A stretch of 64,000 nt of DNA from Mizugakiibacter sediminis (GTDB lineage Bacteria; Pseudomonadota; Gammaproteobacteria; Xanthomonadales; Rhodanobacteraceae): contig NZ_DF970134.1 in the NCBI RefSeq assembly GCF_000953855.2, positions 1 through 64,000 of the forward strand, given 5' to 3'. Shown piece after piece: positions 5,806 through 6,930 of this stretch (positions are counted from its first letter, which is position 1; every line of letters starts with the position of its first letter). The notes beneath the pieces were generated by a model. The model was not told the DNA's origin and made no database searches. It worked only from the letters and a program-made list of their open reading frames with translations. Both the position numbers and the translations under genes were made by a program.

Positions 5806-5814
5806 ATTATACCA
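5806..5814 (-). promoter_or_regulatory. Extended -10 promoter candidate for gyrB
   Basis: On the minus strand a TGG precedes a perfect TATAAT (TATAAT at 5811-5806), i.e. an extended -10 element, 66 bases upstream of the gyrB ATG. The position expected for a -35 box (about 5829-5834) has no match and falls inside the parS palindrome at 5826-5853. Confidence 0.6.
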
Positions 5815-5825
5815 GCACACGCCGC

Positions 5826-5853
5826 GCCGGCTGTTCCACGTGGAACAGCCGGC
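5826..5853. promoter_or_regulatory. parS-like ParB-binding site 1 (gyrB-recF spacer)
   Basis: A perfect 28-base palindrome whose 16-base core at 5832-5847 is TGTTCCACGTGGAACA. This is the parS form known from Pseudomonas and relatives. It lies directly next to the recF stop codon and over the -35 region of the gyrB promoter candidate. Confidence 0.85.
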
Positions 5854-6930
5854 TCAGCGACGGCGCTCGATCCGCCCCTGTTCCACGTGGAACAAGGCGG
5901 CTTCGAGGCCGGCCAGCGCCGGCGGCAGCTCGGTGCCGGTCACCAGCACCTGTGCGGCACCGGCCGTCAGACGCTCCACCACCCGGCGCTGATGGGTCTG
6001 ATCGAGCTCCGAGGCGAGATCGTCCAGCCCGATCATCGGCCATTCGCCGCGGCGTTCGGCGTGCAGCTCGGCCTGCGCCAGCACACAGGCCAGCGCACAG
6101 AGTTTCTCCTGGCCACGCGAGAGGTGTTCGCGGGCGGGCGCTTCCGGAAAGGCCAATGCCCAGTCCGCGCGGTGCGGTCCGGCCGTGGAGTGTCCGCGCG
6201 CGTAGTCCTGGCCGCGCCGCTCGGCCAGATGCTCGAGCAGCGCGGCACCCTCCGGCCAGCCGCGCCGGTAGCTCAGCCGTACCGGTCCCAGTTCCGCCAG
6301 GAAGGCCTCGGCGGTCCGGCCGATCCAGATCGACAGCGCTTGCAGATAACGCCGGCGGACCGTATCGATGACGGCCGCGACCGCGGCCATCTCCGCCTCC
6401 CAGGGTGTCAGCCAGCCGGCGGGCGCCTGTTGCCGCAGCAACGTGTTGCGCTGCCTGAGCGCCCGTTGGTAGCGGCGCCAAGCCGGCAGGAATTCCGGTT
6501 CCACGTGGAACACGCCCCAGTCGAGGAAGCCGCGACGCTCCTCGGAGCCGCCTGCGATCAGCGCGTGCGAGCCCGGCTCAAAACACACCACCGCACAATG
6601 ACGCAACAGATCGCCGACGCTCTCGGGGGGCTCGCCGTCCAACCGTGCCGTCCAGCGCCCGGCCTCCCGCCCCAGCCCCAGCCGGTGGCGGGCGCCGCCC
6701 GTCGTCGTCAGCTCGGCATAGACGGAGAACGCGCGCTCGCCCCGCCGCACCAGGACGTCGCGTCCGCCTGCGCGGAACGAACGCCCGTGCGAGAGAAGAT
6801 AGACGGCTTCCAGCACGCTGGTCTTGCCGGCGCCGTTGGGGCCCAGCAGCAGATTGATGCCCGGCTCCGGCGCCAGTTCGACATGATCGAAGCAGCGCAG
6901 GTTCTGCAGGCGCAGCCGCTCGAACCTCAC
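5854..6930 (-). CDS. recF: RecF recombination mediator
   Basis: RecF is an SMC-like ATPase that loads RecA on gapped DNA with RecO and RecR. The Walker A GPNGAGKTS is near residue 30, the ABC signature LSRGQEKLCAL near 265 and Walker B IGLDDLASELD near 300. I chose the GTG at 6930 because GGGGAGGGC lies 5-12 bases before it and it opens with VRFERLRLQNLRCF, the normal RecF N-terminus. This gives 358 residues (E. coli: 357). An in-frame ATG at 6978 would add 16 poorly conserved residues. The coding sequence contains two parS-like sites (5879-5894, 6497-6512), each translated as FHVE. It lies between dnaN and gyrB. Confidence 0.96.
   Translation of the reverse strand: MRFERLRLQNLRCFDHVELAPEPGINLLLGPNGAGKTSVLEAVYLLSHGRSFRAGGRDVLVRRGERAFSVYAELTTTGGARHRLGLGREAGRWTARLDGEPPESVGDLLRHCAVVCFEPGSHALIAGGSEERRGFLDWGVFHVEPEFLPAWRRYQRALRQRNTLLRQQAPAGWLTPWEAEMAAVAAVIDTVRRRYLQALSIWIGRTAEAFLAELGPVRLSYRRGWPEGAALLEHLAERRGQDYARGHSTAGPHRADWALAFPEAPAREHLSRGQEKLCALACVLAQAELHAERRGEWPMIGLDDLASELDQTHQRRVVERLTAGAAQVLVTGTELPPALAGLEAALFHVEQGRIERRR
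5879..5894. promoter_or_regulatory. parS-like site 2 (inside recF 3' end)
   Basis: Perfect 16-base palindrome TGTTCCACGTGGAACA, identical to the core of site 1 and 31 bases from it. It overlaps the last codons of recF. Confidence 0.85.
6497..6512. promoter_or_regulatory. parS-like site 3 (inside recF)
   Basis: GGTTCCACGTGGAACA: 15 of 16 bases match the two perfect sites; only the first base differs. It lies in the middle of recF. Confidence 0.75.

Follow-up and report, generated by a model that had tools for sequence, protein, structure and literature searches.

Three parS sites lie in and beside recF of Mizugakiibacter sediminis, next to the replication genes, and the one nearest gyrB stands 20 bp upstream of what looks like the gyrB promoter. 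With modest confidence, we read this arrangement as the centromere of a ParABS system, with ParB binding predicted, whose promoter-side parS would serve as an operator-like damper of gyrB. The window is the whole stretch of DNA that was analysed, 64,000 nucleotides of contig NZ_DF970134.1. The features on which the argument relies are the following.

3329..5740, minus strand: gyrB (TIGR01059, 1017.5 bits, cut-off 882.4)
5806..5814, minus strand: inferred gyrB extended -10 element, TGGTATAAT (TATAAT at 5811-5806, TG at 5814-5813; no -35 element)
5826..5853, unstranded: 28-base perfect palindrome, containing site 1 and abutting the recF stop codon (5854-5856)
5832..5847, unstranded: site 1, perfect parS in the recF-gyrB spacer, outside the recF reading frame; 20 bp separate it from the gyrB -10 downstream
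5879..5894, unstranded: site 2, perfect parS at the recF 3' end, encoding FHVE(Q)
6497..6512, unstranded: site 3, parS with one mismatch in mid recF, encoding FHVE(P)
5854..6930, minus strand: recF, start approximate (TIGR00611, 327 bits, cut-off 172)
7010..8110, minus strand: dnaN (TIGR00663, 334.6 bits, cut-off 137.65)
8314..9960, minus strand: dnaA, longest frame (TIGR00362, 558.7 bits, residues 112-544)

A first-pass annotation of the window had reported two perfect copies and one 15/16 copy of parS, and a sequence scan recovered all three at the same coordinates. Read on the coding (minus) strand, sites 1 and 2 are both TGTTCCACGTGGAACA, and site 3 is TGTTCCACGTGGAACC, identical to parS1 and parS4 of Pseudomonas aeruginosa. 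All three fit exactly the 16-bp palindrome TGTTCCACGTGGAACM, reported as the parS sequence bound in vivo in P. aeruginosa ChIP-seq (PMC5098823), and this match to a ParB-bound sequence upholds the identity that had been proposed for them. Three or more matches at up to three mismatches were found in 0 of 100 shuffles (shuffle mean 0.10). In the whole genome (3.12 Mb, assembled as 149 contigs of unknown order), sites 1-3 are the only parS at one mismatch or fewer, and all of them fall within 700 bp; at three mismatches, the genome scan gave five further places, versus 10 for a reversed-pattern control. Chance clustering is ruled out by the shuffles and by the genome scan with its reversed control. 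The motif is not a common genomic word either, with only three copies genome-wide at up to one mismatch. The genome scan had been named beforehand as a test, the expectation being that the motif would not be frequent far from the origin, and this is what was observed in the M. sediminis genome.

Origin proximity was also part of the earlier description, and we judged it from the gene neighbourhood: dnaA, dnaN, recF and gyrB, recognised by curated models, surround the cluster, and 3/3 sites (up to one mismatch) lie in this region. Two perfect DnaA boxes, at 8268 (minus strand) and 8303 (plus strand), lie in the dnaN-dnaA spacer (8111-8313), at a distance of about 1.8-2.5 kb from the three parS; this spacer is possibly oriC or the dnaA control region. 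The 5' end of the longest dnaA frame is probably over-extended. A ParB is encoded in the genome (193.6 bits, cut-off 58.45), its closest solved chains being ParB, Noc and Spo0J. Its gene adjoins rsmG and the gene of a ParA-like ATPase, whose model matches are below equivalog cut-offs, on a contig other than that of the window. Because the ParB domain model also matches the E. coli control genome, it is the rsmG-parA-parB setting that matters, and we take the two proteins to be the cognate chromosomal ParA and ParB of a ParABS system. ParB exceeded the cut-off in 144 of the 151 genomes of the class, and a class-wide split of parS by ParB presence was uninformative. Judged on these sequences, sites 1-3 very likely form a chromosomal ParABS centromere, at which ParB is predicted to dock.

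Sites 2 and 3 belong to an old and widespread pair. From 151 class genomes, 127 had a recF over cut-off, 125 loci were read and 122, one per family, were parsed; two genomes whose recF was split in two (G123, G145), together with three unparsed loci (L050, L139, L164), were left out. At up to two mismatches, a C-terminal parS was present in 101 of these loci, a mid-recF parS in 100, and both in 90. The set f1, drawn from the family of the window, comprises 38 of the 59 genomes of the family sample. In all, 159 of 162 loci were parsed. Both recF parS are present in 38/38 f1 loci. In the family sample, 58/59 genomes match parS at up to one mismatch, 52 of them exactly twice, with pairs 612-627 bp apart among the matches listed. 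One relative has a lone one-mismatch parS on a contig other than that of its recF pair (G031:C14:212140-212155). A parS past the recF stop was seen, among the 38 f1 loci, only in the window and in its sister species (L038, L039). The age and spread of the recF sites, and the fact that site 1 alone is specific to the genus, had escaped the first-pass annotation.

The codons of the pair bear the mark of DNA binding. FHV(E/K) is encoded in 104/122 loci at the mid-recF place and in 101/122 at the C-terminal one. At these stretches (mid and C-terminal, respectively), CAC was found in 103/104 and 99/101 cases (same-gene background 0.40), GTG in 103/104 and 100/101 (0.36), GAA at FHVE in 90/90 and 78/78 (0.53), and AAA at FHVK in 14/14 and 23/23 (0.65). 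Since the codons are near-invariant there while varying elsewhere in the same genes, they are fixed by DNA binding and not by the protein alone. Protein constraint alone, as the cause of recF conservation, is ruled out by this codon choice, and E. coli K-12 agrees, its RecF having FHNE at one of these stretches and FTVE at the other; Enterobacteriaceae are reported to have no chromosomal par genes (PMC3909081, in excerpt). M. sediminis therefore has a recF-embedded parS pair with fixed codons at both FHV(E/K) stretches. The earlier statement that the sites impose FHVE on RecF twice is confirmed by both recF sites and by the codon test over 122 loci, with the correction that 'inside recF' describes sites 2 and 3, site 1 being in the recF-gyrB spacer.

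A recF location is not new in itself, as parS1 and parS2 of P. aeruginosa have been published as recF sites (PMC3909081, PMC5521831). They are likewise two intragenic recF parS near oriC, bound by ParB in vivo (PMC3909081, PMC4368675, PMC5521831, PMC5098823), and in the excerpts of these reports one ends in ...AACC and one is perfect, like sites 3 and 2 respectively. The two species differ elsewhere. P. aeruginosa has two further parS (3 and 4), which are intergenic and located by PA0011 and PA0013, whereas the M. sediminis genus has a third, non-coding parS at the gyrB promoter; the same excerpts describe none at the gyrB -35 of P. aeruginosa.

Site 1 is separated from TATAAT by exactly 20 bp. 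Setting TATAAT as -12 to -7 places parS at -48 to -33 (centre near -40.5) and the palindrome at -54 to -27, in line with the first-pass remark that site 1, as part of a 28-base palindrome, covers the -35 position. At the -35 place no TTGACA-like hexamer is present, and a simple two-hexamer promoter scan did not detect a gyrB promoter; the putative promoter of the window was called because of its sequence and its conservation. In the sister species, the parS of site 1 is kept at 15/16 bases and GTGCTGGTATAAT at 13/13, and the rest of the recF-gyrB spacer has largely diverged between the two species, except immediately ahead of gyrB itself. recF ends in FHVEQGRIERRR-stop in the window; its counterpart in the sister species ends in FHVEQGRIDRRR-stop, and both genes contain site 2. 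In this genus, compared over two species, no -10 is left at the canonical position, and the geometry is fixed instead around a displaced TGGTATAAT, preceded at 20 bp by a non-coding parS in both.

The 20 bp spacing recurs across the class, which the annotation had not noted. In 24 of the first 32 f1 loci, and in 30/38 of all f1, a -10 stands exactly 20 bp beyond the parS closest to gyrB. Scanning the class for parS-N{12,42}-TATAAT gave matches in 44/369 genomes, with a gap of exactly 20 in 38/44 (hand count), and 0 with the reversed control. The equivalent scan of the order matched 165/398 genomes (reversed control 0); the gap was 20 in 136 of the 150 matches listed (hand count), the other 14 having gaps of 21, 22, 23, 25, 35, 36 and 37. 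A scan of named genomes (at least 120 loci) gave a gap of 20 in 31 of the 37 listed matches with gyrB just downstream, versus 93 listed matches without gyrB that were spread over 29 gaps, with a maximum of 9 at one gap (also 20). Relatives with the 20 bp gap include Rhodanobacter (L183, L203). Among the 103 class loci with parS, 36 have TATAAT at offset 20, and no other offset accounts for more than 2. Some counts argue against a strict rule. Family f2, of the same order, has the pattern in at least 4 of 128 genomes among the matches listed (G630, G635, G660, G743; hand count). In another f2 locus, L142, parS is kept in recF and no gyrB -10 is found at 20 bp.

This spacing concerns the promoter-proximal parS and the gyrB side of it. 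The mid-recF parS, which shares the gene and the motif, had no TATAAT within 70 bp in either direction in any of 100 loci; in the reverse direction from the C-terminal parS, one was found in 101 loci. Again against a strict rule, when parS and an adjacent gyrB were both present (83 class loci), the -10 was at 20 in 39 and not in 44; 20 loci had none, and the rest were scattered. The form found 20 bp downstream of the promoter-proximal parS is the extended one, TGnTATAAT: TGn accompanied 33/34 of the TATAATs at offset 20, versus 8/18 elsewhere (Fisher p 2.5e-5), 3 of these 18 coming from loci without parS. In 34/34 offset-20 promoters, the best -35 match reached at most 2 of 6 positions. These sequences point to parS taking the place of the -35 in an extended -10 gyrB promoter. 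As to the history of the spacing, the label was not clustered on the tree, where it changed 29 times versus a shuffled mean of about 28, on a poorly resolved tree with 3/80 inner branches starred; this fits long retention with many losses and repeated gain alike.

A constant distance could nevertheless be inherited with RecF. In 32/39 gap-20 class loci, a 22-nt recF tail follows parS and the stop TAA is inside TATAAT, so that the 20 bp gap could come with an inherited RecF tail. The locus would then be a centromere only, the spacing being a co-inherited by-product of a parS tied to the RecF C-terminus and of a -10 grown over the recF stop, and ParB, in its normal amounts, leaving gyrB essentially unaffected. 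We regard this as a serious alternative, though a rather doubtful one. TATAAT is found at the recF stop in 33/83 loci with a C-terminal parS and in 2/7 without; being about equally common without parS, the promoter does not need it, and no dependence of the gyrB -10 on parS was found in this comparison. L112 (G116) and L108 (G204) keep TGnTATAAT over the recF stop with no parS left there at up to two mismatches. The centromere-only explanation also accommodates the steady gyrB mRNA reported for P. aeruginosa mutants lacking ParB or parS (PMC5521831), which bears on the 20 bp geometry only if the PAO1 recF-gyrB junction shares it, and the unchanged gyrB transcription in Caulobacter described below. 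What it accounts for less well is the persistence of a TGn -10 at offset 20-23 in 14/159 parsed loci where the recF stop is outside the -10. Eight of the 14 are weak cases, in which the -10 lost TAA by a base change (TACAAT and similar) and the stop is one codon further; six are clear, namely L012, L030, L103, L114 and the two loci of the window's genus. L114 is from another family (G164, a genome with only two parS at up to two mismatches) and carries an additional non-coding parS beyond the end of recF, at 21 bp from the TATAAT of gyrB. The non-coding parS of the genus and of G164 are free of RecF constraint, and yet 20-21 bp from the -10. In all, seven class loci with a nearby gyrB have their final parS outside recF, past its stop; the -10 is at 20-21 in 2 of them and not in 5. 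The excess of TGn at offset 20 also fits a promoter adapted to a parS that replaces its -35, rather than a by-product.

That geometry could also suggest an activator. Class II activators bind around -40.5, and a parS near this position, next to an extended -10 without -35, might let ParB recruit RNA polymerase to gyrB; direct contact, rather than occlusion, would best fit so narrow a spacing and the lack of a -35. We nevertheless find this improbable: the -10 persists where parS was lost (L108, L112), in P. aeruginosa the published effects of ParB on genes next to parS1-4 are those of a repressor (PMC5521831), and no interaction of KorB, a ParB-family protein, with the sigma-70 holoenzyme was seen by native mass spectrometry, according to the excerpt of PMC11790492. 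Finally, the 28-base palindrome might be a terminator or RNA hairpin after recF, its parS core being incidental, since in a recF-gyrB read-through transcript it would fold into a strong hairpin (z-score -5.2) immediately 3' of the recF stop. A U-run is absent, however, and the terminator scan reported nothing at 5826-5853; moreover the sister species retains the parS core and not the perfect outer arms, and the 16-mer matches bound parS exactly. We consider this explanation very nearly dismissed.

The reading that we prefer, a centromere with an operator-like promoter-side parS, would work as follows. By analogy with known systems, ParB would load on the three sites and spread, and ParA would move ParB after origin replication, which would make the cluster a working centromere. 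Sites 2 and 3 are the old gammaproteobacterial pair, retained inside recF where TTC/TTT-CAC-GTG-GAA/AAA suits the RecF stretches DWGxFHxEP and FxVExG (in the RecF of the window and in that of E. coli). The promoter-side parS would double as an operator-like site at -48 to -33 of a promoter without -35, where ParB, if it binds here and if this promoter is in use, may compete with RNA polymerase while sitting or loading, and so damp gyrB much as KorB damps PkorA, both the direction and the strength of this effect being predictions. In the genus, the coding and promoter roles would have been split: site 2 keeps its place in recF, and the displaced promoter would be served by the extra site 1.

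Damping of gyrB by ParB is plausible from the known systems, of which plasmid RK2 offers one model. There, the ParB-family CTPase KorB binds an operator just ahead of the -35 of PkorA and represses that promoter (PMC11790492); it differs in being a plasmid regulator that works with KorA, and PkorA has a near-consensus -35, unlike the gyrB promoter of the window. In P. aeruginosa, excess ParB decreased gyrB mRNA about 2 fold, and native ParB represses the promoters at the intergenic parS3 and parS4 (excerpts of PMC5521831). The latter resemble site 1 as parS in a promoter region with repression of the gene behind, but their targets are PA0011 and PA0013, not gyrB. P. aeruginosa ParB also co-precipitated GyrA and GyrB as candidate partners, which is a hint only (excerpt of PMC9927451). 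In Caulobacter, the recF-gyrB junction is a hot spot for extra parS, so that parS is tolerated or favoured beside gyrB there as well; these were artificial transposon insertions, and gyrB transcription was unchanged (PMC5815017, in excerpt). The suggestion of the first-pass annotation that ParB could affect gyrB is thus strengthened on the comparative side, by the 20 bp spacing and the non-coding parS, and left in the balance by published effects, which are mixed.

No report of a parS-gyrB promoter spacing was found in the open-licence papers searched, and older subscription papers, such as parS surveys, may mention it. Apparently new here are the recurring parS-gyrB promoter geometry and the genus-specific extra site, on top of a known centromere. 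A wider proposal, which we put forward tentatively and with less than even confidence, is that the centromere site is a conserved regulator of a gyrase gene across Gammaproteobacteria: ParB at -40 would set gyrB output and couple centromere occupancy to supercoiling, and a lineage in which promoter and recF have come apart could re-create a non-coding parS at the same distance.

Gene regulation by chromosomal ParB beside parS is an unsettled question, for which few effects have been reported. An essential topoisomerase whose promoter keeps a preferred distance from parS, across many families of a single class, offers a sharp and cheap test case. The results suggest that a single protein-coding gene can house the centromere of a bacterial family, its codons fixed by DNA binding, and they hint that segregation and supercoiling may be wired together.
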